A stretch of DNA of 64,000 bases from a virus. A program made the position numbers and the translations under genes. Positions 12,939 through 60,359 of the stretch are shown in pieces. Numbering within the stretch: the stretch's first letter is position 1; each line of letters starts with the position of its first letter. A model generated the notes under the pieces. That model worked only from the letters and a program-made list of their open reading frames with translations. It was not told the DNA's origin and did no database searches. The stretch spans positions 96,613 to 160,612 of the IMG/VR virus record IMGVR_UViG_3300035181_002074; one strand, given 5' to 3'.

Positions 12939-14327
12939 ATGGACTTAATTAAGCAACTAGAATCCCTAGTTAAAACCTTAGAGGCTGGAAGTTACAATTC
13001 AGCACCGGGACAATTAGTACAAGGATCTGCGCTTCAATCTGAAGATCTGTCAGCTGTTATGCATAATGTGTGTATCGCTTCAGATGAGATTAAATTGCAG
13101 AAACTTTTCGGTAAGAAAAAAGCAAAATCTCTTACCATCCAATTCAATCGTCAGTTATCATACGGACGTTTGGGTGGAGCAGCTCAGCGCGAAGGCGCGG
13201 TTGGTAATACCAACGTAGGCGACTACGTTCGTGCTACAGTACCTATGTGCTTCTATTCAGAAGTACGCAGAGTGACTGAAGCAGCTAACTTGATCGAAGC
13301 ATTTGATGGTATCAAAGCAGAAGATCGCGAAGCTGAAAACGCAGCTGAAGTAATTGCTATGAACATTGAGTTCGACCTTTTCAAAGGTAAAGCAGACTTC
13401 TCTAACGCAGGTGTATTTGATGGTCATCCAGCAGCTATGCCTGAATTACCAAACATGCTTGGAGTTGACTCTCAAATTCGTCAATCTGACATGCTTGTAA
13501 CTACTCAAGACCTTATGTTCGCGTCTTACGGATCTAATCAATCTGTAGTTCTTGCTCAGAACGCTGCTCTTGACCAGATCGTAATTGAAGATGCTCGTCT
13601 TCGTGCAAAGTTGAACTTTTCACAAGCTAAGAATCTTTATGTAGATCCTGTAATCATGACTAGCTACAACAAAAAAGTTGCACTTGGTACTGGTACTAAC
13701 AGTATTCAACGTATTCAACTCGCTGGTTCTGCTCAAGACGTTTCTGGAGCTTCTCTCCGTCGTCAATGGACAGCTCACGGTGATGTTAATCTTGAAGAGT
13801 CTCACTTCTTACGCGGTAAGACTTCTCCACTTCGTCCAAACATTGGTGGGCCTTCTGCTCCAGCAATCACTACTCAACCATCTTTCGGTGGTTCTGGTTC
13901 ATTGATTACTGCGGGTACTTATGTTTACCTAGTAACTGCTCAAAGTGAAATCGGCGAAAGCCCTGCTACTGCTACTAACACAGTTTCTCCTACTACTGGC
14001 ACAGTTGTTACTATGACAATTACTGCTCAGTCTGGAGTTAAGTTTTACAGCATCTATCGCGGAACTAATGCTAAGAATGCTAAGTTCATCGGTAACGTTG
14101 CTGCAACTGGTGGAAACGTAGTATTTACTGACCTTGGTAATAAGGCTCCGGGATTCGTCACAGGGTACCTCCTAGACGAGAAGACTTGGGAAATGCATGA
14201 TCTTGCCGCTTACAGTCGTAAGAAACTTGCTCAATCCGATCTTTCTACTCCAGAGGCCCATTATACCTTCACAACTGTGGCAGGATACCAACCTCGTAAA
14301 AATGTAATTATCGATAATTTAATTTAG
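12939..14327 (+). CDS. Major capsid protein with C-terminal Ig/FN3-like insertion
   Basis: 462 residues. N-terminal 35 residues: helix L-I-K-Q-L-E-S-L-V-K-T-L-E, then AGS...GSAL-Q-S-E. Q-S-E ends at E35 and is a likely maturation cleavage point. Residues 36-300 look like an HK97-fold capsid shell (E/A-rich helix region near 100-150, then long beta segments). About residues 300-405 form a separate beta domain with G-T-Y-V-Y-L-V-T-A and V-K-F-Y-S-I-Y-R-G-T, like FN3/Ig surface domains, after which the shell sequence resumes. It follows the scaffold and ends before a strong terminator, as expected for the most abundant head protein. Confidence 0.8.
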   Translation: MDLIKQLESLVKTLEAGSYNSAPGQLVQGSALQSEDLSAVMHNVCIASDEIKLQKLFGKKKAKSLTIQFNRQLSYGRLGGAAQREGAVGNTNVGDYVRATVPMCFYSEVRRVTEAANLIEAFDGIKAEDREAENAAEVIAMNIEFDLFKGKADFSNAGVFDGHPAAMPELPNMLGVDSQIRQSDMLVTTQDLMFASYGSNQSVVLAQNAALDQIVIEDARLRAKLNFSQAKNLYVDPVIMTSYNKKVALGTGTNSIQRIQLAGSAQDVSGASLRRQWTAHGDVNLEESHFLRGKTSPLRPNIGGPSAPAITTQPSFGGSGSLITAGTYVYLVTAQSEIGESPATATNTVSPTTGTVVTMTITAQSGVKFYSIYRGTNAKNAKFIGNVAATGGNVVFTDLGNKAPGFVTGYLLDEKTWEMHDLAAYSRKKLAQSDLSTPEAHYTFTTVAGYQPRKNVIIDNLI

Positions 14328-30039: not shown

Positions 30040-30957
30040 ATGCCCAGTCATAAACTCAAAGTATTTGATTTGTTTAGCGGCATTGGTGGGTTTTCCAAAG
30101 GTTTAGAGCAAACCGGTTTATTTGAAACAGTTGGTTTTTGTGAAATTGAGCCATATTGCCAACAAGTCATCAAGAAGCATTGGCCACACGTCAAGATCTT
30201 TGACGATATCAAATCTTTATCTAACAAAACTCCAGAACTTTCAGGTATAGATGTTTTATGCGGTGGATTTCCATGTCAAGATATCTCAATCGCGGGTAAA
30301 GGTAAAGGCATAACCGGTGAAAGATCTGGATTATGGCAAGAATACAAGAGGGTAATTAATGAAGTAAGACCAAAATACGCAATTATTGAAAACGTCAGCG
30401 CACTCCTTGGCAGAGGACTTGAAACAGTCTTACAAGACCTTGCCGAAATCGGGTACGATGCGACTTACACGACCTTTGACAGCCAATTCTTCGGAGTCCC
30501 ACAACGTAGACGTAGAGTGTACATTCTCGCAGTCCGCGATGGAATCTTGCCCGAATCCGATATCTTCGAGCTTGGAAAACGTGATAGTGAACAACTCGGA
30601 CGAGAAATGGCAGCTATCAAAGAAGGCAGCGAGTGGAATTTTACGCAGAGAGATAGAAAGCAATATTCCTTTGCCTATTTTACTCGCCAACGCTCTGATC
30701 AGTATTCGTGCTGCGGAGTAAGCGGCACTTTAGCAAAAAGAGACTATAAAAGTTATACTGATCTGGTAGTGGATAATCATGGAGTACGCAGAGTGACACC
30801 ACAAGAAAGAATGCTTTTACAGGGGCTTCCGGCTGATTGGCTAGATGGGTGCGGATTAACGAATATGCAAATGTTTTTATGTAATGGAATGACCGTTCCT
30901 GTGGTATCATATATAGGGAATCGTTTATATGAATACAATCAAACAGCTCGAATTTAA
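30040..30957 (+). CDS. DNA (cytosine-5) methyltransferase
   Basis: 305 residues with the family motifs in order: I D-L-F-S-G-I-G-G-F (10-18), IV G-G-F-P-C79-Q with the catalytic cysteine, VI E117-N-V, VIII-like Q-R-R-R-R-V-Y, and a C-terminal C-N-G-M-T-V-P-V that stands for motif X. The region between VIII and IX is short (target recognition about 170-250), so specificity cannot be read. It probably methylates phage or host DNA to evade restriction. Overlaps the second methyltransferase gene by 29 nt. Confidence 0.92.
   Translation: MPSHKLKVFDLFSGIGGFSKGLEQTGLFETVGFCEIEPYCQQVIKKHWPHVKIFDDIKSLSNKTPELSGIDVLCGGFPCQDISIAGKGKGITGERSGLWQEYKRVINEVRPKYAIIENVSALLGRGLETVLQDLAEIGYDATYTTFDSQFFGVPQRRRRVYILAVRDGILPESDIFELGKRDSEQLGREMAAIKEGSEWNFTQRDRKQYSFAYFTRQRSDQYSCCGVSGTLAKRDYKSYTDLVVDNHGVRRVTPQERMLLQGLPADWLDGCGLTNMQMFLCNGMTVPVVSYIGNRLYEYNQTARI
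30903..30910 (+). promoter_or_regulatory. Possible extended -10 promoter
   Basis: TGG-TATCAT (TATCAT 30905-30910), followed by AGGGAA and the second methyltransferase ATG. Weak evidence. Confidence 0.3.
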
Positions 30958-31978
30958 CGGAATTACTGTTGGTGATTTATTCTGTGGTGCTGGCATTGGT
31001 GGATTAGGGGCTAAACTAGCTGGAATCAAAACAGTGTATGCCTTTGATAATAATCGCATTGCGGTAGATACTTTTAATCGGAATGTAGAACCAGTAGCAT
31101 ATCTCGCGGACGCTAATCAGATAGAGGCTTCTCTTCTTCCTTATACTGACATTATTACTGCTGGGTTTCCTTGCAAGCCGTTTTCTGTCGCCGGTAAAGG
31201 TTTAGGAATTAAAGATCAGAAATACGGTAATTTAGGTACCATCGCGGTTAATATCATTTTGAACAAACAGCCCAAGGCTTTCTTATTAGAGAATGTAAAG
31301 GGAATTTTATCTAAATCAAATATGCCATCATTTGAAGCTTTATTGTTACCTCTCACCAAAGACTATAATATTACTTGGCAGTTGATCGATTGCTCAGAGT
31401 ACGGTGTACCGCAAAAAAGAGAAAGAGTTTTTGTTATTGGACTACGCAAAGATCTCGAAAAGCAATTTACTTTTCCTTTGCCAACTCACCCGAATAAGAA
31501 AAACACCGTTTTGGACGCAATAGGTGATTTACCAAAAGATCCTTGCAATTCGGTTCCTAATCACGCAAGAGATTGTGGTTTACGTAACGATGAAAAACCC
31601 TTCGTACATAAAATTCCTGTAGGTGGTAATTGGAAAAATTTACCAGTTGAAGATCAAAAAACCTTCATGAAGAGGGGGTTTTATAGCGGCGGCGGACGAA
31701 CTGGAGCTTTATATAAAGTTGACCCATACAAGCCAGCTAAAACCATTTTAAGTTCGCCAATGGGAAAGGCAACCGCACAGATTCTCCACTGGGAAGGGCA
31801 CCAACCAAGACGATATACTGTGCGCGAATGTTTACGTCTACAATCAGTACCTGATAGTTTTATTTTCGATGAGTCTATATCACTACTGCGCCAGTATGAA
31901 CGATGCAGTGGAATCCCAACATTAGTTTCGTATATTTTAATGAATCAGATATCTCAGATAATCAGGAGTACAGAATGA
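30929..31978 (+). CDS. Second DNA (cytosine-5) methyltransferase
   Basis: 349 residues. Motif I D-L-F-C-G-A-G-I-G-G, IV G-F-P-C82-K-P-F-S (K instead of the common Q), VI L-L-E-N-V, VIII G-V-P-Q-K-R-E-R-V-F, and a C-terminal R-E-C-L-R-L-Q-S-V-P-D-S-F block. Not a close copy of its neighbour, so it probably has another target site. The terminal motif X is altered (C-S-G-I-P-T-L-V). Coupled to the next gene by ATGA. Confidence 0.92.
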   Translation: MNTIKQLEFNGITVGDLFCGAGIGGLGAKLAGIKTVYAFDNNRIAVDTFNRNVEPVAYLADANQIEASLLPYTDIITAGFPCKPFSVAGKGLGIKDQKYGNLGTIAVNIILNKQPKAFLLENVKGILSKSNMPSFEALLLPLTKDYNITWQLIDCSEYGVPQKRERVFVIGLRKDLEKQFTFPLPTHPNKKNTVLDAIGDLPKDPCNSVPNHARDCGLRNDEKPFVHKIPVGGNWKNLPVEDQKTFMKRGFYSGGGRTGALYKVDPYKPAKTILSSPMGKATAQILHWEGHQPRRYTVRECLRLQSVPDSFIFDESISLLRQYERCSGIPTLVSYILMNQISQIIRSTE

Positions 31979-38009: not shown

Positions 38010-40385
38010 ATGGGATATTTTCAAAAGTTAGCCAAAAATACGAGATGGTCAGGCAAACATCTGTCAACACCGCAAGCTGGTGATTCTATTCATTTTTCCC
38101 ATCCAGAACATGGTACAGTATCGGTTGTAAAAGATGGTGGCCAGTATCATGTTAAGCATAATGGCGCTCACGCTGGAATTTTAAACCAAAAAGGCATTTT
38201 CAATACCCCAAAAGAAGCCGTACAACATGCCAAGGATTTCATGGCTAAACTAGGCTCTGGTGGACATGGTAATGCTATGCACAATATGCCTAGCGCACAA
38301 TCCATGCCAAGTAAGCCGCATCTACAAGCCCCTAAAAATGATGTTTTCGGTAAAGCTGAAGGATATGCCCCATCGGCAGTAGATAGCCCAAATTTTAAGA
38401 TCGGCGGCACGTTAGCTGATTTCCAAGCCGGTGCCCAAACGAATAGCTTTTCTAGCCCAACTCCGATTCCGCCAGTAATGAAAGACGAAAAACCAAATTA
38501 TACTCGCAATATATGGCATCCAAAACGATTAGATGTTGGCTCCCATATCATGTATCAAGGCAAGAAACATAAAGTAGTTGCCCAGCATCCGAAACCGGAC
38601 AATAGCGCTAATTTTAAAGAACATTATCATACCACACTTTTAGAGGTCAAAGATCCAATTAAAAAAGAAGAATTAGATAAATCTACAGCATTAGAAAGAC
38701 ATTTACAGGCGAAAGGTAAAAGTAAGAATCAAGCCCGTGCTGTCAGATCTCGCGGGAATCCAAAAGGTGTACATTTACCGATTGATAATAAGGGTATATC
38801 AAGCGCGGGAGCATATGCCACTGGACGTATTCGTACCGCTGATGAAAATTTTAATGCAGTTCCTAAATCACAAGATGTTCAGCATGCAAAGTCTTTGCAC
38901 TCCCAAAAACTAAGAGAATTGCGCGCAATGCCAAAGCCAGATCTTGGTAAAGCTCGCCAAGAAGAAGATCTTTCATCAAGGCAAAAAGTTCAAGTACGCC
39001 ATGCACGTTCAGAAAAACCTATTCATCCATTTGGAACTAATGAAAGATTCCATCCAGAAGGACGTAATACCCAAATGGGACAAATTGCCCGTAATAATAA
39101 GTTACGTGCATTCAGAAAACAACCTAAGCCAGACTTAGGTAAAAAAGAATCTAAATTAGCTTTCTTGTTTAAGCACGACTATTTCAATCTGTTTAAAACT
39201 GTATCAAGTCCAGTCAGAACTAAAACTATCATGGATTGCCCAGAGGATCATGACATAGCGGTTAATCAAAAATTTGAATCAATGATTATGGATCGTTTAG
39301 CTCAGTTCCGTAAAGACGAATCAGAAAATCCAGCACAGCCAGATAAGCCAGCCGAAACAATTGCCGGTACGCCTAAAAAACAACAATCTAGATCTTATGA
39401 TTTGTTCACGGATGAAATGGCCAACGCAAAAACTGCTAAGAGCGGTAAACGCGGCGAATTTCTATCTGCTATTTTACATTTAGCTCCAGCGGATCTTGCT
39501 GGCGGTAAAGATGTATGCCCATTCGCTACTGACGGTTGCCGACATGCCTGTTTAAATACGTCTGGTCGCGGTGGTATGCTCGACAGAGAATATGATCTCA
39601 ATGATATTCAATTGGCCCGTATTCGTAAAACAAAAGAATTCCATGATAGTCCGCATGCGTTTTTAAGTCGCATTAGTCGTGATATCGAAAAGCTTAAGCG
39701 TTACGCTAAAGCTGACGGACGTAGACCAGTAGTAAGATTAAATGGAACATCTGATATTAATTGGGCGGCATTGAAATCCCCTAATTTGAAAGGGCAAAAT
39801 ATTTTCGACGCTCATCCAGATGTACAATTCTACGATTATACAAAAAATCCATATATTGTAAAAAATAATAAACACCCAAATTATCACGTAACTTTCAGTT
39901 ATGCTGATGGTGCCCAAAATCAAGGCCACGCAAAAGAATTATTAGCTCAAGGGCACAATGTTGCGGTAGTATTCGGTGGCAAAAAAGATGGCCAAGCTAT
40001 TTTCCCTAAAAAATTTAACGGACATGATGTTGTAAGCGGCGATGAGACAGATTTACGTTTCTTAGACCCAAAAGGCGGCAAAATTGTTGGATTAAGCGCT
40101 AAAGCAGACGCTATGCGTGATACTACCGGTTTCGTACAATGGGGTCATGAAGGTGAACCCGATGCCGTACCTAGACCGAAGACTGAAAAAGATCGTTACG
40201 AAAGAGTTAAGCAGTCTGGCGAAGCTAAGGTTGAAGCCTTCAGACAAAAGAAGTTAGACGCTAGAGCTGCAAAAGTGCCAGTTATTAAATCTGAACAAAC
40301 TCTGCTCGAACAAGCCAAAGAATTATTGAAATCATTACAAGAAAATCCAGCACAGCTGGAAGCATTAACGAAAGTTAAGAAATAG
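38010..40385 (+). CDS. Cargo protein with K-P-x-L-G-K repeats and Gp88-like cysteine domain
   Basis: 791 residues. Residues 1-75 form a small beta domain. Residues 235-390 hold two ~60-residue repeats ending M-P-K-P-D-L-G-K and Q-P-K-P-D-L-G-K. Residues 470-715 are a globular domain with C503-P-F-A-T-D-G-C510-R-H-A-C514, followed by V-V-R-L-N-G-T-S-D and F-V-Q-W-G. It resembles the mycobacteriophage gene-88-like family, whose function is unknown. K-S-E at 760-762 precedes a C-terminal helix E-Q-A-K-E-L-L-K-S-L-Q-E-N-P, almost the same as the N-terminus of the next protein. Late motif upstream. Confidence 0.6.
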   Translation: MGYFQKLAKNTRWSGKHLSTPQAGDSIHFSHPEHGTVSVVKDGGQYHVKHNGAHAGILNQKGIFNTPKEAVQHAKDFMAKLGSGGHGNAMHNMPSAQSMPSKPHLQAPKNDVFGKAEGYAPSAVDSPNFKIGGTLADFQAGAQTNSFSSPTPIPPVMKDEKPNYTRNIWHPKRLDVGSHIMYQGKKHKVVAQHPKPDNSANFKEHYHTTLLEVKDPIKKEELDKSTALERHLQAKGKSKNQARAVRSRGNPKGVHLPIDNKGISSAGAYATGRIRTADENFNAVPKSQDVQHAKSLHSQKLRELRAMPKPDLGKARQEEDLSSRQKVQVRHARSEKPIHPFGTNERFHPEGRNTQMGQIARNNKLRAFRKQPKPDLGKKESKLAFLFKHDYFNLFKTVSSPVRTKTIMDCPEDHDIAVNQKFESMIMDRLAQFRKDESENPAQPDKPAETIAGTPKKQQSRSYDLFTDEMANAKTAKSGKRGEFLSAILHLAPADLAGGKDVCPFATDGCRHACLNTSGRGGMLDREYDLNDIQLARIRKTKEFHDSPHAFLSRISRDIEKLKRYAKADGRRPVVRLNGTSDINWAALKSPNLKGQNIFDAHPDVQFYDYTKNPYIVKNNKHPNYHVTFSYADGAQNQGHAKELLAQGHNVAVVFGGKKDGQAIFPKKFNGHDVVSGDETDLRFLDPKGGKIVGLSAKADAMRDTTGFVQWGHEGEPDAVPRPKTEKDRYERVKQSGEAKVEAFRQKKLDARAAKVPVIKSEQTLLEQAKELLKSLQENPAQLEALTKVKK

Positions 40386-41886: not shown

Positions 41887-41896
41887 CCTAATATTT
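41887..41896 (+). promoter_or_regulatory. CCTAATATTT late-promoter motif for sheath gene
   Basis: Perfect copy, 50 nt before the sheath ATG. The long leader carries TAAGGAG. Confidence 0.65.
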
Positions 41897-41946: not shown

Positions 41947-44721
41947 ATGGCTCAACAATATACGACAAACGATGGAATCAGCCTCAAGATACCCGGCACA
42001 TACGTAAGTCCTACAGTTAAATCCGGTTCAGGTGGCGTTGCTGCTGCAGGTATCGTGACTATTATCGGTGAAAGTTCGGCTGGTCCCGCATTCACACAAG
42101 AAACAGATCTACAAAATACAGCATACACCCCAGATCAATTCGGTCGCGTAGCTGCTAAATACGGCAGTGGACAAATCGTTGATGCATTTAAAGCCCTAGT
42201 ATCCGCAGCTAATGACGCAGCGATTGTTGGAGCTGTTAGTTTAGTACGTATCATCAAAACGAATCCATCTGTGGCTGCAACTGGCACAATGAGATCTAAT
42301 GGCGCTACGTATTCTACATTGACTGCTCGCAGTGAAGGTAGTGACGGTAACCTTATTAAATACAGTTCTGCAACTTCTACTCAAGAAACTGCTCCACAAA
42401 CTGGATCAATGGCTTATACCCCTGATTTTATTACAGCAGCAACTGGGTCTTTGACTATCAATGGCTCTGTAACCCAAGCATTATCGTTTGCAGCAAAAGC
42501 TGAATTATCGGCTATTACTGCTAGTACTGAAAGCATTGCTAATGACATATTAGTAGCAGGTTCAGCTGAATCTCTTCCAACAGCTGCAAACGTAGGCGCT
42601 ACATTAACTGCGTCTTCTCCTTCAGCTAATACATTAATCGTATCTCTTAGCTCTGGCCAAACATTCGCTGGTTCACCTGCTATTGGTGATTCCATTGTTA
42701 TTCCTGCAAGTGGTGACTTTAGTGCATCCGCAGATTCTCTAATTAGTGCTGCTGGTACAATTAACATTGGTTCATATATTATCACTGCAGTGTCTAACAC
42801 AGTGTCTAGTGCATCCATGACATTGAAAAAAATCAATTCTCCATCTGGAATGGCTTTAGGTTCTGCTTCTGGAACGATCTTGGCAGCACAAAGAGATACC
42901 ATTCTTTATAAATCAATCAATATTCGTAACATGTCTGGTTCTAATCGTAGAGCTGCTCATGGACAAACTGGAAATTTCGTTTCTGTTATTTCTGGACCAA
43001 ATGTAACTTTAACTGCTCCAGCTAACTGGACACAACAACCACAAACTGGTGACATCTTCAAAACTGCTGCTACTTTTGCTGGTATTACGACTGGATTCTA
43101 TTCTGTAGTATCTTCTAGCGCTAATACAGTAACCATGGTTAGATTGTCAACTGGTTCTGCTGGTTCATCTAATACAACCAACGTAGTAACAGCTATTTCT
43201 GATAGCTCTGAGCCATTTAAGTTTTCTCGTCCAGCTATTGATGGACTTGGTAAATCACTTGAATTATCTGGTGCATTGACTTCAGTTTTCAAAGATCCAG
43301 CTACCCAGTCTACAGCTGCTCAAATTAATACTTTGATGACTTCAGCGTCTGAGTCTAAGAACACAACTTCTTTCTCAAGAGGAACGACCAGTGAAAATTT
43401 CACTACCGGTGGCGAAATTGCAATGAGAGCTGGTTCAAGTCTAGCTAATCCCACTATGCAAGTACTTTCCGATAGAATTGATTTTTATACAGGAGCAACA
43501 TTAGTGTTCAGCGCTTCTTATAAGCAATTTAGTACCATGCAAAACATGGCTGATTACATCAATTCTCAAACTGGGTTCTCTGCTTCATTAACTTCTGCAA
43601 AATATTCCACAATGAATCCTTCTTCATTAGACGATGGAACATACGGTTTATTGTCTAGCATCTCTGCTAGCCCTGCTCGTATTAAAATTGATGCATTCAG
43701 ATTCAATGCTGCAGTTAATCAATCAACATTAGTTACAGCAGCTACAGCTTCTCAATCTGGATTACCTGAAACTATTACCCCAGCGCAATTCCTATCAGGC
43801 GGTGCTAAAAACGGTACAACTTCTGCTCAAGCAGTAGCTGCAATCGATGCATGTGAAAAACTTGATACTAACTTCATCGTGCCATTGTTTTCAAGAGATG
43901 CTGCTGACGATGTTACTGATGGATTGACTGAATCTTCTTCTACATATTCTGTAGATGCAATTAATGCTTACCTTCAAGCACATGTGATCAAGATGTCATC
44001 TGTTAAGATGCGCAAGAATCGTATCGCGATTGTTTCTAAATCTTCTGACTATGAAAGCGTTAAAAATGCTGCAGGAGAATTAGTTTCTTACCGTGTAGCT
44101 ATGGCTTTCCAAAACGTTCGTGCAGTAAATACTGCTGGCCAAATTGCTGAATTCCAACCTTGGATGACTGCATGTATTGCTGCAGGTATGCAAGCTGCTG
44201 CTGGTTACAAAGGTATCGTTAAAAAGTTTGCGAATGTATCTGGCGTAATGTCTCAGTCTGATTTTGATGCAAGTTCACCGGGTGATCTCGAAGATGCATT
44301 ATCAGCTGGATTATTGATTATGGAACGTGTTAACACTGGTGGAACTCGTTGGGTTTCTGATCAAACTACTTACTCAGTTGATAACAATTTCGTATACAAT
44401 TCTTTGCAAGCTGTTTATCTTGCCGATCTTATTACATTATCACTCATTCAAACCTTTGACAGAGCTGTTGTTGGTAAATCAGTTGCTGAAATTTCAGCTG
44501 CTGCAGCATTATCAGTTCTCGAAGCTGCAATGTTTGATTACTTAAGACTCCGTTGGATTGCACCAAGCGATGATCAAGCCCCTAAAGGCTTCAAGAATGC
44601 TTCAGTTAAATTAACTGGTGGTGTTATGAATATCAGCGTTGAAGTGAAACTTGCTGGAATCATCTACTTCGTGCCTATTGCTCTTGCAATATCAGAAGTA
44701 CAACAAAGCGCATCAGCGTAA
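41947..44721 (+). CDS. Tail sheath protein
   Basis: 924 residues, first gene of the tail block. N-terminus G-T-Y-V-S-P-T and I-I-G-E-S-S-A-G-P and the C-terminal region (residues ~640-924: M-D-Y-L-R-L-R-W and G-G-V-M-N-I-S-V-E-V-K-L) follow the pattern of contractile sheath proteins. The long middle (about 95-500), rich in S, T, A and G beta repeats, is an insertion that should decorate the sheath surface. Followed by a tube gene, as in other myoviruses. Strong Shine-Dalgarno and late motif suit a high-copy protein. Confidence 0.85.
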   Translation: MAQQYTTNDGISLKIPGTYVSPTVKSGSGGVAAAGIVTIIGESSAGPAFTQETDLQNTAYTPDQFGRVAAKYGSGQIVDAFKALVSAANDAAIVGAVSLVRIIKTNPSVAATGTMRSNGATYSTLTARSEGSDGNLIKYSSATSTQETAPQTGSMAYTPDFITAATGSLTINGSVTQALSFAAKAELSAITASTESIANDILVAGSAESLPTAANVGATLTASSPSANTLIVSLSSGQTFAGSPAIGDSIVIPASGDFSASADSLISAAGTINIGSYIITAVSNTVSSASMTLKKINSPSGMALGSASGTILAAQRDTILYKSINIRNMSGSNRRAAHGQTGNFVSVISGPNVTLTAPANWTQQPQTGDIFKTAATFAGITTGFYSVVSSSANTVTMVRLSTGSAGSSNTTNVVTAISDSSEPFKFSRPAIDGLGKSLELSGALTSVFKDPATQSTAAQINTLMTSASESKNTTSFSRGTTSENFTTGGEIAMRAGSSLANPTMQVLSDRIDFYTGATLVFSASYKQFSTMQNMADYINSQTGFSASLTSAKYSTMNPSSLDDGTYGLLSSISASPARIKIDAFRFNAAVNQSTLVTAATASQSGLPETITPAQFLSGGAKNGTTSAQAVAAIDACEKLDTNFIVPLFSRDAADDVTDGLTESSSTYSVDAINAYLQAHVIKMSSVKMRKNRIAIVSKSSDYESVKNAAGELVSYRVAMAFQNVRAVNTAGQIAEFQPWMTACIAAGMQAAAGYKGIVKKFANVSGVMSQSDFDASSPGDLEDALSAGLLIMERVNTGGTRWVSDQTTYSVDNNFVYNSLQAVYLADLITLSLIQTFDRAVVGKSVAEISAAAALSVLEAAMFDYLRLRWIAPSDDQAPKGFKNASVKLTGGVMNISVEVKLAGIIYFVPIALAISEVQQSASA

Positions 44722-47594: not shown

Positions 47595-47623
47595 AATATA
47601 TCATGATTTATGTTACATGTCAA
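47595..47623 (-). promoter_or_regulatory. Sigma70-type promoter, minus strand
   Basis: TTGACA, 17-nt spacer, TATATT. Its -35 box abuts the plus-strand late motif at 47625, giving a compact divergent early/late control region. Leader about 60 nt. Confidence 0.8.
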
Positions 47624-47624
47624 C

Positions 47625-47634
47625 CCTAATATTT
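47625..47634 (+). promoter_or_regulatory. CCTAATATTT late-promoter motif
   Basis: Perfect copy, 22 nt before the first tail-appendage gene. Confidence 0.65.
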
Positions 47635-47656: not shown

Positions 47657-49006
47657 ATGTGGACTTTTTTATCGAACAAACAAGAAACTAACGAACGCTC
47701 AAACGAGTTGAAATCATTTTCCGCTCCAGCTGGCGTTCTATTTCAGAACATTACTTCGTATAAAGATCATGCTGGTAATTACATTAAAATAATTGAAACT
47801 AGTATGGATATTGTTCCCGTTCTTGGTCTGACTGCCCCAAATGGTTGGAATTGGGTAGAAGATAGTCATAATATAGTTGTAGGTGCTGATCCCCAAATTG
47901 AAACCGTTTTTAAAATTCTATTATCGGATGGAAATTATCTTTACCGTGTTCTCACTGAATCAATTGACCGAAGCAGCGGACTGATTAAGGCTGCAGACGA
48001 ATCCATACATTATTCTGGAGTATTGTCTTCGGAAACCCCAACACGCTGGTACGACATTGCTCCAGCAGACGGCAAAGTATTGCCAATATCAGCTCCAAGA
48101 GCTTATTACCCATCTATTTTGTATAGCTCGACGCCCGTTTTTTTTGATGGTACTAAACTCAGAAAATACGTAGCATATTATGGAGCTGGAACTTCACCGG
48201 TGTTTAGCTCTGCCGCATTTTCAGATGACGGAAAGACTTGGGATAATGAGCAGCAATTATCGGGAGTAGTTGGTGATGCATACCATGCTGCCTCTATTTT
48301 GATCGGCACGACCATACATTATTTTTACTGGGATACTACAACTACTATTTATTCTCCAAGTGCTACAAGACATGCGACATTTAATGCTGCAGTCAGTTGT
48401 ACTGCTGCAGTAACCGATGCAGCTTGTACCGGTAATTATATTACGGGTATTTCCGGTGATTTAAGAAATGGCACCTACGGATTTAATCAAGTATTTTATA
48501 ATGCAGCCCCAACCAATAACCCCGCTAATCCGTATTCATATACATGGTGTGCAATTCACAGCGGCACGGATGGCTCTAATGAAGGGATTTTGTTTGCGAC
48601 ATCTACTGATGGTTTAAATTTTACAAAATGGAACAATCTTGTTGAAGTTATCCCACGCGGATTAAGCACCAGTTTCTGGGATTATATGATTGGCACCATG
48701 TTTGTATTCACTGATTCAACTGGTTTTTATCACGCATATTATTCAGGTGGATTAGGTACGAGTAATGGTGAAGATACTAATTTCGGTGGCGGCATAGGGT
48801 ATGCAACCAGTGTAGATGGTATTACATGGGTGAAATATGAAAAAAATCCCATCATCCGTAAAACTGAAGCACTAAAAATATGGAAACGTTGTTATACCCC
48901 ATGCGTAATTAAGGATTCACATGGAGTATATACCATGTATTATTCAGGAAAAAGCTCTGCTGGTGTCTATACTGTACTATCCGCTAAAATTGCGGGATTC
49001 ATCTGA
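47657..49006 (+). CDS. Tail appendage with shared N-terminal anchor and Asp-box beta-propeller
   Basis: 449 residues. Residues 1-120 (M-W-T-F-L...K-Q-E-T, D-H-A-G-N-Y, L-S-D-G-N-Y-L-Y-R) are shared with the proteins at 49048 and 49718, so they form the virion anchor. Residues 130-449 are a propeller-like domain with F-S-D-D-G-K-T-W, T-S-T-D-G-L-N-F and T-S-V-D-G-I-T-W, which are Asp-box/BNR-like or GH43-type blades. A glycan-binding or depolymerase role at the host surface is likely. Confidence 0.65.
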   Translation: MWTFLSNKQETNERSNELKSFSAPAGVLFQNITSYKDHAGNYIKIIETSMDIVPVLGLTAPNGWNWVEDSHNIVVGADPQIETVFKILLSDGNYLYRVLTESIDRSSGLIKAADESIHYSGVLSSETPTRWYDIAPADGKVLPISAPRAYYPSILYSSTPVFFDGTKLRKYVAYYGAGTSPVFSSAAFSDDGKTWDNEQQLSGVVGDAYHAASILIGTTIHYFYWDTTTTIYSPSATRHATFNAAVSCTAAVTDAACTGNYITGISGDLRNGTYGFNQVFYNAAPTNNPANPYSYTWCAIHSGTDGSNEGILFATSTDGLNFTKWNNLVEVIPRGLSTSFWDYMIGTMFVFTDSTGFYHAYYSGGLGTSNGEDTNFGGGIGYATSVDGITWVKYEKNPIIRKTEALKIWKRCYTPCVIKDSHGVYTMYYSGKSSAGVYTVLSAKIAGFI

Positions 49007-49013
49007 TTTTCTC

Positions 49014-49023
49014 CCTAATATTC
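49014..49023 (+). promoter_or_regulatory. Variant late-promoter motif CCTAATATTC
   Basis: Nine of ten positions; 24 nt before the second appendage gene. Confidence 0.55.
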
Positions 49024-49047
49024 TTATCTGGAGATTGAATCATAATT

Positions 49048-49668
49048 ATGTGGATAACACTATTAGAAAAGCAGGAAACGGCTGAACGTTTCAATGAATT
49101 ACAAATTCTTACTACTGCTCATGGCACATTCTTTAAAAGTGTTTCCACTTATACTGATCCTGCCGGTAATTACAGTAAAGCCGTAGAATCAAGCTTAGAT
49201 TTACTTCCGTTGGGGCTATCAGCTCCGAATGACTGGATTTGGGTCGAAAATTCCGTGACCACGTCAGTTAAATTATCTGATAAGCGTGTTAATATCTTAT
49301 ACACTATTCTGCTGTCAGATGGCAATTTTCTATATCGAACAGTGACTGAATATCGTGATTTAGCCACCGGTTCTATCAAATATTCAGATGAAAACATGCA
49401 GTATTCCGGTTCCGCTGCATCATCTGGATCAGCATTTAATGTGCAATATTTCGTATTAACCGGAACAGATATTACCAATAAATACTTAGTACTTCCGAAT
49501 ACCCCTTCCGACTCGTCCAAGGTACTAATAGCAGTCGCAGACTTGATTGGAGATCCAGAAAATGGGCTCGATTATACCGTTACTGGTCAAGTGATATCTT
49601 GGAATGGGCTTGGATTACAACCATATCTGACTGCTGGCATGAAACTTACCGTCACATATGCGGCATAA
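49048..49668 (+). CDS. Tail appendage with shared N-terminal anchor and short C-terminal domain
   Basis: 206 residues. Residues 1-120 match the anchor of the flanking appendage proteins. The last ~85 residues (Y-F-V-L-T-G-T-D-I-T-N-K-Y-L-V-L then a beta domain ending V-T-Y-A-A) form a different beta domain like those found on phage fibres. Own late motif. Confidence 0.65.
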   Translation: MWITLLEKQETAERFNELQILTTAHGTFFKSVSTYTDPAGNYSKAVESSLDLLPLGLSAPNDWIWVENSVTTSVKLSDKRVNILYTILLSDGNFLYRTVTEYRDLATGSIKYSDENMQYSGSAASSGSAFNVQYFVLTGTDITNKYLVLPNTPSDSSKVLIAVADLIGDPENGLDYTVTGQVISWNGLGLQPYLTAGMKLTVTYAA

Positions 49669-49687
49669 GCTTATTATTGGCAATGAA

Positions 49688-49697
49688 CCTAATATTT
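49688..49697 (+). promoter_or_regulatory. CCTAATATTT late-promoter motif
   Basis: Perfect copy, 20 nt before the collagen-like fibre gene. Confidence 0.65.
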
Positions 49698-49717
49698 TTA
49701 ACGGGAACCCTTAGACA

Positions 49718-51598
49718 ATGTGGACTTTTTTAGCAGAAAAACAAGAAACTTTAGAGCGCTATAATGAGATTTACAGCTTTCAAACAGCTGTAGGTACCTT
49801 TTTTAAAAGCGTTACGTCGTATAAAGACCATGCTGGTAACTATATTAAAATAGTTGAAACAAGCATGAGTTTGGTTCCAGATTTTAATCTGACTGCCCCA
49901 AATGGTTGGAATTGGGTACTGGAAAACTCCTTTAATACTGACTTGGTCGATACCAAGGTCGAAAGCTTTCATAAGATATTGTTATCTAATGGTAGCTATT
50001 TATACCGTACTCTGACTGAGTACCGTGATGATTCTAATGGTCTCATTAAAGCAGCCGATGAAGCACTAGCGTATGACGGCATAGTTAACGGTCCTGCCGG
50101 TGTACAAGGTCTACAAGGCTTTTCTGGCACGATGGCTGTTAATTCCACTGTAACTGGCATTGCAGGTTCACCAGCAACCGTCACCAATGTCGGTACTCCA
50201 CAGGCCGCATTACTTGACTTCGTCATCCCTAGAGGGATTACAGGCAATACTGGGGCAGCTGGAGCGAATGGAGCCGACGGTGCTGCAGCAACTATTGCAG
50301 TTGGAACTGTGATAACTGGCAACGCTGGCTCAAGTGTTATAATTAATAATGTCGGGTCATCTTCTGCGGCCATTTTCAATTTTACTATCCCACGCGGTAA
50401 TGTTGGGGCAGCTGGAGCTAATGGAGCCGATGGTGCTGCTATTTATACTGGCGCTGGAACCCCATTAAACACCAACGGTGATGATGGCGATTTCTATGTT
50501 AAATCTAGTAACGGTGATTTCTATACCAAGGCAAGCGGTGTCTGGACTGTACAAGGCAATCTAACTGGTCCCGCTGGACCTCAAGGAATACAAGGACTTA
50601 CGGGTTCTGCTGGTTCTGTCGGAGCAACCGGTCCTGCCGGATTAAACGGTACTAATGGAACCAACGGTATTGATGGTAAAACTATCCGCAGTGGTACATC
50701 CACCCCATTAAATTCTTTCGGTAACGATGGCGATATTTACATTAAAACAAGTACTAACGAGCTGTTCGGACCTAAATCTGGCGGCAATTGGGGTACCCCT
50801 ATTTCATTAATCGGACCTCAAGGAATTCAAGGAATTCAAGGGGTTACAGGATTAACCGGCGCTACCGGCGCTACTGGAGCAACCGGTGCAACTGGCGCCG
50901 ATGGATCACAAATTTTGACCGGAATCGGAACCCCATCTAATGTTCTTGGGGTTGATGACGATCTATATATCAAAACTTCTAACGGCGCTTATTATTTAAA
51001 AGTAGCTGGTGCATGGGTACTTCAAGGAAACCTCACCGGACCCCAAGGAATTCAAGGGGTTATCGGATTAACTGGAGCAACCGGACCAGCTGGACCACAG
51101 GGAGCTGGCTTCCCGATAGGCGGTTCAACCGGACAGTTTCTTAAAAAGAATTCTGGCACGGATTTTGATACATCATGGTCTACTGTCACCAAAAGTACGG
51201 TCGGATTATCTAATGTTGATAATACATCTGATGCAGGAAAACCCATTTCCACGGCAACTCAAACAGCTTTAAACGGTAAACAAGATGCGGCTCAAATTGT
51301 AGATTATGCCCAAAACGGGGTTGTAACTAATGTACAATATTCAAATTTAGAATTTGAAATAGCCCATGATCTTAAAGTAAATACTTACTTCAAAGAATTA
51401 CAATATTCATTGGGTGTCTTAACTGTAATGAATGTATGGACTACTCCAGCAATGACGGTACACAAGTATCAAAAAACTTTTACATATACGTTGGGACAAT
51501 TAACCAGTATTGTTACAGTGCGAATAGCTGATTCAGCAACATTAACAAAAACATTTACTTATTCAGGATCTGATCTGATAGGTGTGAGCGCGGCATAA
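49718..51598 (+). CDS. Tail fibre with shared anchor and collagen-like repeats
   Basis: 626 residues. Residues 1-120 are the shared anchor. After that come G-X-Y collagen-like blocks (G-P-A-G-P-Q-G-I-Q-G-L-T-G, G-A-T-G repeats) alternating with repeated segments of the type I-G-T-P-S-N-V-L-G-V-D-D-D-L-Y-I-K-T, at least three copies. The C-terminal ~110 residues are a beta domain. Collagen-like repeats form trimeric stalks in phage fibres, so this is a trimeric tail fibre. Confidence 0.8.
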   Translation: MWTFLAEKQETLERYNEIYSFQTAVGTFFKSVTSYKDHAGNYIKIVETSMSLVPDFNLTAPNGWNWVLENSFNTDLVDTKVESFHKILLSNGSYLYRTLTEYRDDSNGLIKAADEALAYDGIVNGPAGVQGLQGFSGTMAVNSTVTGIAGSPATVTNVGTPQAALLDFVIPRGITGNTGAAGANGADGAAATIAVGTVITGNAGSSVIINNVGSSSAAIFNFTIPRGNVGAAGANGADGAAIYTGAGTPLNTNGDDGDFYVKSSNGDFYTKASGVWTVQGNLTGPAGPQGIQGLTGSAGSVGATGPAGLNGTNGTNGIDGKTIRSGTSTPLNSFGNDGDIYIKTSTNELFGPKSGGNWGTPISLIGPQGIQGIQGVTGLTGATGATGATGATGADGSQILTGIGTPSNVLGVDDDLYIKTSNGAYYLKVAGAWVLQGNLTGPQGIQGVIGLTGATGPAGPQGAGFPIGGSTGQFLKKNSGTDFDTSWSTVTKSTVGLSNVDNTSDAGKPISTATQTALNGKQDAAQIVDYAQNGVVTNVQYSNLEFEIAHDLKVNTYFKELQYSLGVLTVMNVWTTPAMTVHKYQKTFTYTLGQLTSIVTVRIADSATLTKTFTYSGSDLIGVSAA

Positions 51599-51610: not shown

Positions 51611-53722
51611 ATGGCAATAGCAAAAGTAATTACGGCAGATTTACAAGCATCAGTAGGCGGATCATATCTGCAGACAAGAACTACGATTTCTGGCACAACA
51701 ACACAAAAAACACTTCAAGGTGTTCCAGTAGTTGGGGCTCCATTAGTTCGCTGGGTAGACGTATTCACTGATTTTTCTGGCGAGATTCCTGTTATGACTC
51801 GACTCACTGTAAATAATCGATTATTTACGATTACCGCAATTACTGGGGGGCTTGCACGATTGATGATGTATACCTTTGATCCCGCTACCGGAAACGCTAC
51901 GCCCGTTGGTCGTATTCAGTTAACATTTCCAAATTTAATTGCCACTGCTCATACCATTAAAGGTCTAAGAGTTGATGATAGTAATCCATCAGCAATTAAA
52001 GTATTTATTGCTACCCTTGGTTCAGTTACTGCTAATGCTGGATTATTTATGGCAAATAATATATCTACCAGTGATTTTGCTTTTTTTGGATTTCCTACTC
52101 TTTTGTCTGCAACCGGTTCAAATCAAAAAGCGGTATATTTACTAGAAGATCCAGCAAATGCTGGTAACTTACAGTTAAATACTGTACCAGTGGCGCTCGC
52201 CCTAGATCGAGTTAATAAATTAGTATACGTGCATAATGGTACAGCCGCTACGCACCAATATTATGTTTATGATTATAATCTTACCCCAGATGTACCATCA
52301 CAGACTTGTACTGTCACGACTGTCGGCGCAAATGCCATTATTACAACATCTGGTGCGCACGGATTATCGACAATCGATCAAATCGTGTTTTCTAATACTG
52401 GCGGTGCTTTACCGACTGGATTAGTTGCAGGTACTGTTTACTGGATCAGTATTTCAAATTTTACTGCAAATACTTTTTCCGTTTCGACTACTGCGGCTCT
52501 TGCTGCTGTCGGAACAAACCTAACTATTTCTACTGCGGGTACAGGTACACAAAGCGTACAAAGAGGATATGGAATCAGCGGATCTTGCTGGAAATGGAAA
52601 ACAGGTAATTTACCTTCTGCTACTGGAACATTAATTACTATCAATTCTGAAAAATATATGACACCTGCACATTCTACGAATTCAGGTTTTCCTTGTTTAT
52701 TTTTTGCTACAACAACCAATCTATATCTAGGTAAAGCTTCAGAATTAACTTCTGGTGCTACAACATGGCCATCACTCACAACTTCAAATATCTTGGGAAC
52801 GCCAAATCAGATTATTGCACCAACAACCGTGCTAGCTGATTGGGATGAATCTTTAGATAGAGCTATGTATACCACGTCAATTATTAAAATAGTTGCAAAA
52901 AAAGTAGTGAATAATGCCATTGAATCTATTTTTGGTGAATTAAATAATGATTACCTTGAAGGTGTATCACAAACAGATTTGATTACTCAATTCGGAGCTA
53001 TCACCGTAGCGGATATGGGCCATGCCAATGGGTGGATGTTTTTAACTGGAGCATCAACTGGTCAGCGTGGTATTTTACTATCCAACACAGCAATGCAGAA
53101 CACCGTAGATACTTCATATGTCATTACTAAAGTATTAGATACCCCGAATGCATTATCATATGTAGGCGTTGCTACATCTTTGCAAGCACCAAGTAAAACC
53201 ACTAATCCAGTAATATATTATCGCACTTCTGGGTTTGGTGCTGCAACTGGTGGATGGACTCTCTTGCCAGATAATTTATTAATGGGTTCCGTAACTCCAG
53301 CCGCACAAATACAGTTTAAAATTGAACAAAGGTTTGATAACACGGCATCTGCTAACCCTCCGCAAATGATTGAATGTTTTTTGGCATACACTTCTTCTAT
53401 TGCAATGTCAGACAACTGGACTGGTTCGAAAGTTAATTCATCTGCTCCATCTGCAAGTCCATTTTACGTGGCTTTCAGGTTAAATAGAGCTTATTCTTCT
53501 GGTACTGTACCACGCATGAAGGTTACTGTAGTAGATGATTCTGGTGCGGTATCTATTTATGATACAATTACCCATGCAAGTGCCTTTAGTTATACTATCA
53601 ATAATGGAACGAGCTGGTCGGCACTTGGAACTGTACCTAATACGGCACTTACTACTGAATTAAGATTATTAATTAGTGCGCCAAGTGGTAATCCAGTGAC
53701 ATGCGGAATACAGGAGTACTAA
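51611..53722 (+). CDS. Large beta-rich tail-appendage protein
   Basis: 703 residues. Nearly all beta, rich in T, S, A and G, with a possible propeller in the first half (repeated I-K-V-F-I-A-T and L-Y-L-G-K-A type strands). An inserted ~85-residue unit (T-V-T-T-V-G-A-N-A-I-I-T-T then G-T-V-Y-W-I-S) recurs in other phage fibres. Same operon as the collagen-like fibre. Probably part of the host-recognition apparatus. Confidence 0.55.
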   Translation: MAIAKVITADLQASVGGSYLQTRTTISGTTTQKTLQGVPVVGAPLVRWVDVFTDFSGEIPVMTRLTVNNRLFTITAITGGLARLMMYTFDPATGNATPVGRIQLTFPNLIATAHTIKGLRVDDSNPSAIKVFIATLGSVTANAGLFMANNISTSDFAFFGFPTLLSATGSNQKAVYLLEDPANAGNLQLNTVPVALALDRVNKLVYVHNGTAATHQYYVYDYNLTPDVPSQTCTVTTVGANAIITTSGAHGLSTIDQIVFSNTGGALPTGLVAGTVYWISISNFTANTFSVSTTAALAAVGTNLTISTAGTGTQSVQRGYGISGSCWKWKTGNLPSATGTLITINSEKYMTPAHSTNSGFPCLFFATTTNLYLGKASELTSGATTWPSLTTSNILGTPNQIIAPTTVLADWDESLDRAMYTTSIIKIVAKKVVNNAIESIFGELNNDYLEGVSQTDLITQFGAITVADMGHANGWMFLTGASTGQRGILLSNTAMQNTVDTSYVITKVLDTPNALSYVGVATSLQAPSKTTNPVIYYRTSGFGAATGGWTLLPDNLLMGSVTPAAQIQFKIEQRFDNTASANPPQMIECFLAYTSSIAMSDNWTGSKVNSSAPSASPFYVAFRLNRAYSSGTVPRMKVTVVDDSGAVSIYDTITHASAFSYTINNGTSWSALGTVPNTALTTELRLLISAPSGNPVTCGIQEY

Positions 53723-53725
53723 TCG

Positions 53726-54184
53726 ATGGCTAATAATATTTATTTCGGCGGAACAGATTATAATGTTTCATCAAATGCTTGTGTATTTGATATCACGCCG
53801 CCATCATTTTCAGGTGTTTCTTCATTAGTAGCTCAACCGAATGGCTCATTAAGAGCTACATGGACTGCTGCTACTGATGCATCATCACCAGTACGTTACA
53901 ATATTTATGTTTCCACATCAGCGGGGGACATCTACACTAAACTAATTGGTAGTGTTAACGGATTAACGGTTGATATATTTCAAAGTACTACTGGTTTATT
54001 ACAATATAATACTACTTATTATGTTGCAGTACGTGCCGTAGATGCAGTTGGTAATATTAATACTAACGTAGTAACATTAAGTGCAATCAGTTCTGGCGTA
54101 TCCATTGATAGTACATATAATTTATTGCAACAAATTCTTAATAAAGAAGATAAAATCATTAATTCAGTATACGGACTATATTAA
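53726..54184 (+). CDS. FN3-domain tail protein
   Basis: 152 residues. Residues 20-120 form one fibronectin type III domain: D-I-T-P-P-S-F, then L-R-A-T-W-T-A-A-T-D, R-Y-N-I-Y-V-S-T and Y-Y-V-A-V-R-A-V-D. The C-terminus is a helix (L-L-Q-Q-I-L-N-K-E-D). FN3 domains on tails often bind surface carbohydrates. Confidence 0.7.
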   Translation: MANNIYFGGTDYNVSSNACVFDITPPSFSGVSSLVAQPNGSLRATWTAATDASSPVRYNIYVSTSAGDIYTKLIGSVNGLTVDIFQSTTGLLQYNTTYYVAVRAVDAVGNINTNVVTLSAISSGVSIDSTYNLLQQILNKEDKIINSVYGLY

Positions 54185-54186
54185 CT

Positions 54187-54675
54187 ATGAGACAGTATGC
54201 ACTTATTAAAGACGATGTTATTACTAGTATTGAAAATCTCAGTAATGATGACTATAGTCGTCGCATTACGTCGTATCAAACTATCATTGATATCGAAGAT
54301 ATGACTAATAAGCCATCTACTGGATGGATACTGTGTGGAAATAAATTTAAACCAAATAATAATTTTGCAACCATCCAAGATCAAGTATATGATCAACAAC
54401 AACGTCAACGTGTTTTTGGCGAAAGTTTGTCTCCCGTACTGGTAGATATGATGGGCGCACGTAATTTAAAATTATCGTTGGATGGCACAGTCGTTAATGT
54501 CGCCTCCTTGTTAAATTCCCTGAATGCAGTAAAGGCATTACTGGAAACGGGAGCATTAAAAACTGCCCGCACCGTGATTAACTCCGTTACGGCATCTTTC
54601 CCCGCGTATGCAGATATTTTTACGTATGCTGTAAATGAAATAACTATTTTTCTAGCGGAAAATCATTACGAATAA
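54187..54675 (+). CDS. Uncharacterised tail-appendage protein
   Basis: 162 residues, 2 nt after the previous stop. Beta N-terminal half with S-T-G-W-I-L-C-G-N-K-F like fibre-attached domains, helical C-terminal half. Possibly a fibre chaperone or fibre tip partner. Confidence 0.5.
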   Translation: MRQYALIKDDVITSIENLSNDDYSRRITSYQTIIDIEDMTNKPSTGWILCGNKFKPNNNFATIQDQVYDQQQRQRVFGESLSPVLVDMMGARNLKLSLDGTVVNVASLLNSLNAVKALLETGALKTARTVINSVTASFPAYADIFTYAVNEITIFLAENHYE

Positions 54676-54685
54676 GGGTTAATTT

Positions 54686-55198
54686 ATGGATTACATCATT
54701 GTTGGATTCTCAAAGCCGACCAGATGGAAACCTTTTGCTTGGCTTATTTCAGCTTTATGGAAAACTGAATATGATCATGTCTATATCGGATTCTATTTTG
54801 ATAAGTATGAGCGTAACGTGGTTTATCAAGCCAGCAAATTAAGTGTTAATTTCATGGAGAAGTCGAACTTCACCAGAGATAATGTGATAATTAAAGAGTT
54901 TCAGATTTCTATTACCCCTGAAAATAAAATCAAAATGATGCAATTTGCTATCGATAACTCGGCAAAAGCTTACGGCATGAAATCAGCCATTGGTGTTGGA
55001 TTAGTTAAGATTTTTTCATTCTTTGGTAAGAAGATTGCGAATCCGTTCCGTGATGGCGGAAAAACATATATTTGTTGCGAACTAGCTGCTGTGATAATGG
55101 AACAATTTGCTGATGCGAAGTTTAATACCGGCAACGATGAGATATCCCCAAAAGACGTGTACGACTATTTAGAGTCATCTGAAGCGTCATCAATATAA
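54686..55198 (+). CDS. Permuted NlpC/P60-like (papain-type) hydrolase
   Basis: 170 residues. Y-D-H31-V-Y-I-G-F then I-C130-C131-E-L-A gives the His-before-Cys order of permuted NlpC/P60 (YiiX-like) enzymes. These are amidases or thioesterases acting on cell wall or lipid targets. Placed last in the appendage operon, it could be a tail-borne or lytic enzyme. Its 3' end overlaps a minus-strand gene by 34 nt. Confidence 0.6.
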   Translation: MDYIIVGFSKPTRWKPFAWLISALWKTEYDHVYIGFYFDKYERNVVYQASKLSVNFMEKSNFTRDNVIIKEFQISITPENKIKMMQFAIDNSAKAYGMKSAIGVGLVKIFSFFGKKIANPFRDGGKTYICCELAAVIMEQFADAKFNTGNDEISPKDVYDYLESSEASSI

Positions 55199-59449: not shown

Positions 59450-59842
59450 ATGGATACAATCAAAGTAATAGAGTTTAATGGTATAGGCGAAAACACTGGA
59501 CAGTCATTTAATGGTCGGTTTAAATTGAAAACAATTCTCTCAAGAAGAGATCGTTTTGCGGCAGATTTAAGGCGTCGCGAAATACTAGGCCCGCAATCAG
59601 AAAATGCAATGGCAGCGCTAAATGGTGAGTCATTTATGCTTGGGAGACTTTTTGTAAGCATTATTGAGGCACCATCATGGTGGGAAAACAGCGCTAACGG
59701 ATTAGATCTCAATGATGGGAACATTATTGCAGAACTATTCGAAGAGTGCTTGAAGGCTGAAAAAGAACAACTTGAATCAGTTCAAGAAAAAGCATCACAA
59801 GCTCTAGAGAAATTAAGCAAAAAGACAAAGAAGGATGAGTAA
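59450..59842 (+). CDS. Tail assembly chaperone 1 (predicted)
   Basis: 130 residues behind AGGAG. Mixed domain then an acidic, helical C-terminus. In myo- and siphoviruses the two small genes directly before the tape measure are assembly chaperones, and this pair has that position, size and an 8-nt overlap. No convincing slippery heptamer is seen near the end, so the second protein appears to start at its own ATG. Confidence 0.55.
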   Translation: MDTIKVIEFNGIGENTGQSFNGRFKLKTILSRRDRFAADLRRREILGPQSENAMAALNGESFMLGRLFVSIIEAPSWWENSANGLDLNDGNIIAELFEECLKAEKEQLESVQEKASQALEKLSKKTKKDE

Positions 59843-60359
59843 ACCGGACTACTACCGCTCCTTGCAAATCCTCGCGATTGAAGCTGTAGAGTTTCAAGAT
59901 GGGGATGCTTTTTACCGCAAGGTATGTCGGTGGTATTCGAAAACTTTTTCTACTCCTCTTACTGATGTGGCGCAATTATCCATGGATCACGTATTGACGA
60001 CATATTACGAAGATACCTTTGATACGCTGTACAGTGCAGACGATGAAGATTCAAAGTATACGTATGATCAATACCGTAAAAAGATATTGACACCTAATGC
60101 CGAAGGCGATGAAGTTAATGAAGACGAAGAATGGGCAATGAAGGAAATTGAAGCCATGCGTAAAAAAGCTGAAGCAAAAGCTAAGGCTAAAATGAATCAA
60201 ACCCTTGATAATACAGTGAAAGATATTGTGGATCTGGTTAAGAATGAGATGGATAAGCAAAAAATGGCCCACCCCCAAGACCCTAATATTCAAGATAATC
60301 CCCCAATAGATCTGGATAATTTCAGTATGAGTGGTGAAGATCCCTTTTTTCCAGAATAA
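59835..60359 (+). CDS. Tail assembly chaperone 2 (predicted)
   Basis: 174 residues, ATG inside the end of the previous gene. N-terminal globular part, then charged helical K/E/A-rich region (about 95-145) and an acidic P/D-rich tail. Precedes the tape measure by 19 nt. Contains an in-frame CCTAATATTC (60283-60292) that could double as a late promoter for the tape measure. Confidence 0.55.
   Translation: MSKPDYYRSLQILAIEAVEFQDGDAFYRKVCRWYSKTFSTPLTDVAQLSMDHVLTTYYEDTFDTLYSADDEDSKYTYDQYRKKILTPNAEGDEVNEDEEWAMKEIEAMRKKAEAKAKAKMNQTLDNTVKDIVDLVKNEMDKQKMAHPQDPNIQDNPPIDLDNFSMSGEDPFFPE

Follow-up and report, generated by a model that had tools for sequence, protein, structure and literature searches.

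Three paralogous genes with a common N-terminal domain, different C-terminal modules and a promoter-like motif form a probable tail-appendage set in a large contractile-tailed phage

We analysed a stretch of 64,000 nucleotides (the window), which corresponds to bases 96613-160612 of a 160,612-bp viral record from IMG/VR. Three consecutive forward genes (genes 1–3) lie there just downstream of the sheath and tube genes of a contractile tail. The ORF coordinates first noted for them proved exact, and all three ORFs are intact. The features of the locus, in window positions, are:

41947..44721, forward strand: tail sheath gene, a 36% full-length match to the Mx1 tail sheath, with its own CCTAATATT at 41887
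47595..47623, reverse strand: sigma70-like promoter (TTGACA-17-TATATT, 11/12) for the leftward gene block, divergent from the motif of gene 1
47625..47633, forward strand: CCTAATATT of gene 1, exact, 23 nt before the ATG
47657..49006, forward strand: gene 1, 449 aa; N-domain A (residues 1-121) and a ~328-aa C-terminal part with blade-like repeats, a possible five-bladed propeller
49014..49022, forward strand: CCTAATATT of gene 2, 25 nt before the ATG
49048..49668, forward strand: gene 2, 206 aa; N-domain A and a ~85-aa 'TDITNKY' beta module
49688..49696, forward strand: CCTAATATT of gene 3, 21 nt before the ATG
49718..51598, forward strand: gene 3, 626 aa; N-domain A, a collagen-like shaft, a fibre segment and a terminal module, tip T (~aa 535-626)
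51611..53722, forward strand: 703-aa protein, a conserved neighbour and likely distal adhesin, with homologues at the same locus in the related loci L028 (36% identity), L104, L095 and L103
53726..54184, forward strand: 152-aa FN3-like tail protein, partner gene (phrog_31, central tail fibre J, 1.4e-6), with homologues after the 703-aa gene in L104, L095 and L028
54686..55198, forward strand: 170-aa protein at the end of the cassette, with homologues that likewise end the fibre locus of L028 and of another relative, G005

An earlier, sequence-only reading of this DNA had proposed that the first ~120 residues of the three proteins are homologous, and this was borne out: residues 1-121 are common to genes 1–3, with 49-63% identity and E-values down to 6e-46. 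When the first 121 residues of gene 1 were compared by tblastn with the 160,612-bp record itself, gene 3 matched at 63% identity (E 5.9e-46) and gene 2 at 49% (E 4.3e-33), values that rule out a chance similarity. The search returned exactly three places (the query's own at 100%), so that there is no fourth copy in the record. In this domain (the N-domain) 51 of the 121 columns are invariant, and the similarity stops near residue 121, with no alignable sequence beyond it. The N-domains are under purifying selection, with a dN/dS of about 0.24 for the pair of genes 1 and 3; the dS of 1.45 for this pair is near or at synonymous saturation (dS was not computable for pairs involving gene 2). Together these values indicate that the duplications are old and that the domains have been maintained. 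Genes 1 and 3 also share an identical run of 31 nt, which could reflect a local conversion event between them.

Comparison of the N-domain with Pfam, PHROG and PDB sequences gave no matching family and no known anchor family. Mtd_N (PF18454) was rejected as a candidate, as the Pfam search gave no match to it in genes 1–3, and no homology was found to the ~200-aa adaptor or to the 239-aa gene of the relatives. With regard to gp10-like XD and TD domains of the Ackermannviridae type, the comparison covered Pfam and PHROGs, neither of which gave a match to the N-domain. The AF2 model of gene 2 shows the N-domain as all-beta, with a pLDDT of about 71-92 across residues 1-120; a fold search with this model gave no significant fold, with best E-values of 6e-3 (viral) and 2.5e-2 (PDB) and very low TM-scores. 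Searches of IMG/VR, GTDB genomes, phage records and further relatives, by pattern scans that favour close relatives, recovered a single additional carrier, the related locus L021. By these comparisons the N-domain appears to be a new domain family, missing from Pfam and PHROGs.

Behind the N-domain the three proteins differ. Here the sequence-only reading had named a propeller, a short beta domain and a collagen-like fibre. The last was confirmed in gene 3 (PF01391, 5e-12), which also matches tail-fibre PHROGs with E-values to 2e-19; its collagen-like part is the only stretch in genes 1–3 that looks like trimer-type sequence. Gene 2, very short for a fibre, has the beta domain in the form of its ~85-aa module, which recurs at ~40% identity in L115-L117; proteins from other phages carry it as a single copy or as tandem copies. 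The propeller is plausible and below significance: the C-terminal part of gene 1 contains repeated xSxDGxxW-type segments, and a profile of these blades had weak PDB matches, the best to 3taw, a hypothetical glycoside hydrolase (E 0.016), followed within a few places by an invertase. The AF2 model of gene 1 had a mean pLDDT of 40 and was unusable for the propeller part, and no relatives of the 328-residue C-terminal part were found, including in the locus database of relatives.

Other parts of the window also contain proteins with shared or composite segments. Residues 2-44 of the major head protein (12939-14327) are 51% identical (E 2e-6) to residues 195-237 of a ParB-like 659-aa protein (1608-3587), which suggests a capsid-arm-like segment inside a protein of DNA-binding type; similar segments occur in ORFs of L056, L057, L062 and L094. 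Two overlapping neighbour genes (30040-30957 and 30929-31978) are paralogues, 26% identical over 274 aa. A 791-aa protein (38010-40385) carries a Gp88 domain (PF17338, 1.2e-37) in its C-terminal half, after ~470 residues of unknown type.

Each of the three genes had been credited with its own late promoter. The motif itself is there, an exact copy of CCTAATATT standing 21-25 nt before each ATG; the late timing is what its arrangement suggests. CCTAATATT is the commonest 9-mer upstream of the forward genes of the window (consensus CCTAATATT(T)), and for 10 of its 11 window copies a forward gene begins no more than 60 nt downstream (p about 1e-12). The one exact window copy farther than 60 nt from a gene start, at 60282-60290, sits inside the ORF 59835-60359, 88 nt before position 60379. 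On the reverse strand of the window there is none, despite 21 reverse ORFs, and in the whole 160.6-kb record 20 forward and 0 reverse copies were counted, as against 1 and 0 for the reversed control pattern. In L021, the closest relative, the counts are 18 forward and 0 reverse, with 3 control matches; the other relatives have no excess of CCTAATATT. The distribution makes CCTAATATT a convincing candidate for a late promoter. No copy occurs between gene 3 and the genes at 51611-55198, and the CCTAATATT of gene 3 may serve these genes as well. With the Pfam models for sigma70 r2 and r4, no canonical sigma factor was detected in the record. Sigma70-like promoters and terminators across the whole region are no more numerous than in shuffled sequence.

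Relatives were reached through the sheath gene, which led to 14 and then to 80 related IMG/VR loci, and the N-domain was searched for in 91 loci (1.38 Mb) and in full records. It was present in just one relative, L021, whose sheath is 63% identical (N-domain E 1.6e-30), and absent from the other loci and the full records searched. The corresponding position in L021 is taken by a single N-domain gene of 857 aa; the same kinase-like reverse gene precedes it, and CCTAATATT stands 20 nt upstream of its start. The C-terminal part of this protein is of the minor-tail/tail-fibre type (minor tail protein PHROG, 1.3e-32) and differs from those of genes 1–3. The triplication was seen in no other fetched relative. 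The position of genes 1–3 is the tail-fibre locus of the clade: it lies downstream of sheath and tube, and fibre genes occupy it in the relatives. At the same locus G005 has two adjacent 401-aa genes that both start with Mtd_N (PF18454, above cut-off) and are related to each other along their whole length, which by sequence comparison marks the pair as an independent fibre-gene duplication with another adaptor. Lipoprotein-like reverse-strand genes with collagen-like GPAGPxG segments adjoin the fibre locus in L021 (15124-15597) and L028 (13851-14510).

The relatives also provide the swapped C-terminal domains that had been suggested as a check on modularity. In L028 and L095 the locus consists of a ~190-aa adaptor-like gene, a 227-239-aa gene with a different N-domain, and then the 703-aa homologue and the FN3-like gene; of these, the adaptor-like, the 703-aa and the FN3-like gene are present in L104. 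Tip T, the terminus of gene 3, is matched by the last ~90-100 residues of the 227-239-aa genes (2e-13 pairwise; 5e-7 and 1e-4 in the locus database). Gene 3 is therefore the N-domain of the window phage plus a collagen shaft joined to tip T, and it occupies the equivalent position ahead of the 703-aa gene. In the window and in L095 the tip T gene is immediately upstream of the 703-aa gene or its homologue, and in L028 one extra small gene comes between them. Because L021 carries a different C-terminus on the same N-domain, while L028 and L095 carry tip T behind another N-domain, exchange is visible on both sides of the junction.

These observations agree with the proposal of a modular tail-appendage set, with a shared N-domain in the fibre locus of a contractile-tailed phage, and we regard it as likely that genes 1–3 are such a paralogous set. 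They would be fibre or spike paralogues in the tail-fibre locus of a phage of ~160 kb, probably the outcome of old duplications of an ancestral gene that began with an all-beta domain of ~121 residues. Behind this domain unrelated modules follow: perhaps a propeller in gene 1, a small beta module in gene 2, and the collagen-like shaft plus terminal module in gene 3. Each gene would be transcribed late from its own CCTAATATT promoter, and the products may coexist on one virion, where they might bind receptors and offer several host-range options. Judged from where the N-domain lies and from how proteins of this kind are generally built (PMC10408124), its most likely role is to attach each protein to the virion, at the baseplate or at a fibre hub, and the C-terminal parts would make the surface contacts. 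The 703-aa and 152-aa proteins may in addition be carried by gene 3, whose distal part they would form.

The strongest alternative is compatible with this explanation and narrows the roles within it. Gene 3 may be the shaft of a composite fibre, in which the N-domain docks to the baseplate, the collagen spans the distance and tip T docks the host-binding 703-aa and 152-aa proteins, with genes 1 and 2 as accessory proteins on the same hub instead of alternative receptor binders. A tip T gene precedes the 703-aa homologue in three phages (the window phage, L095 and L028), and no promoter motif separates gene 3 from the 703-aa gene. However, synteny is no proof of contact, and a proximal-to-distal gene order is an analogy with T4 fibres; we rate this arrangement a serious possibility somewhat short of an even chance. 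The synteny of tip T with the 703-aa gene suggests that the product of gene 3 may act as a shaft or linker for the 703-aa protein and not as an independent receptor binder of its own; genes 1–3 thus need not be three alternative receptor binders. A bolder version, which we hold to be rather doubtful, would make the N-domain a new docking fold on one hub carrying three appendages, with gene 3 as the composite-fibre shaft that docks the 703-aa protein via tip T, and with all of them expressed from a late promoter peculiar to the clade, for which the sigma factor would be one that has escaped recognition.

In another alternative the N-domain joins the three proteins into a branched complex of which a single member touches the baseplate, as in the tail spikes of Ackermannviridae. 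The three paralogues are indeed kept together, and such complexes use conserved N-terminal domains (PMC11414711). In Ackermannviridae, however, the members have differing anchor, XD and TD domains while genes 1–3 have one type, and L021, the closest relative, carries just one N-domain gene; we find this arrangement unlikely. That genes 1 and/or 2 are decaying duplicates without a role in the virion is very improbable: gene 2 is short and the triplication is confined to the window phage among the relatives fetched, but all three ORFs are intact, their N-domains are under purifying selection, and the 9/9 motif has stayed exact at a near-constant distance of 21-25 nt although synonymous sites are close to saturation, all of which argues against decay.

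The genes belong to a lineage of large contractile-tailed phages that has hardly been studied. Its fibre loci show adaptor, shaft and tip modules exchanged between relatives, and two of its genomes, those of the window phage and L021, have a clean late-promoter-like motif in common. Myxococcus phage Mx1 (OR576727) was the only named phage found with a full-length sheath relative (36%); unlike the window phage, it has neither the N-domain nor the CCTAATATT motif. Late promoters of the T4 type have the sequence TATAAATA, and phage Aeh1 uses CTAAATA (PMC1524935). By analogy CCTAATATT fits a T4-style late promoter, as it is a short AT-rich, -10-like element close before genes and is strand-biased here, but its sequence departs from the TATAAATA consensus.

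The general kind of arrangement, with a shared N-terminus, swapped C-termini and several appendages per phage, is already well known; the N-domain family and the CCTAATATT motif are what is new here. Modular homotrimeric tailspikes and tail fibres combine a conserved N-terminal anchor with an exchangeable C-terminal receptor domain (PMC10408124). Genes 1–3 resemble them in their conserved N-terminus of ~120 aa, their unrelated C-termini and the exchange between relatives. They differ in that the N-domain is homologous to no profile searched and is present in three adjacent copies in one genome, and in that anchor and trimer are putative. Mtd offers a comparison within the clade, since G005 has its two Mtd_N genes at the same locus, whereas the N-domain of genes 1–3 is not Mtd_N. 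The TSP1-4 proteins of Ackermannviridae form a branched complex and are encoded by adjacent spike genes with conserved N-terminal structural domains (PMC11414711). The window phage is similar in having several adjacent appendage genes with conserved N-terminal domains; while TSP1-4 have distinct anchor, XD and TD domains with different roles, genes 1–3 are united by a single shared domain.
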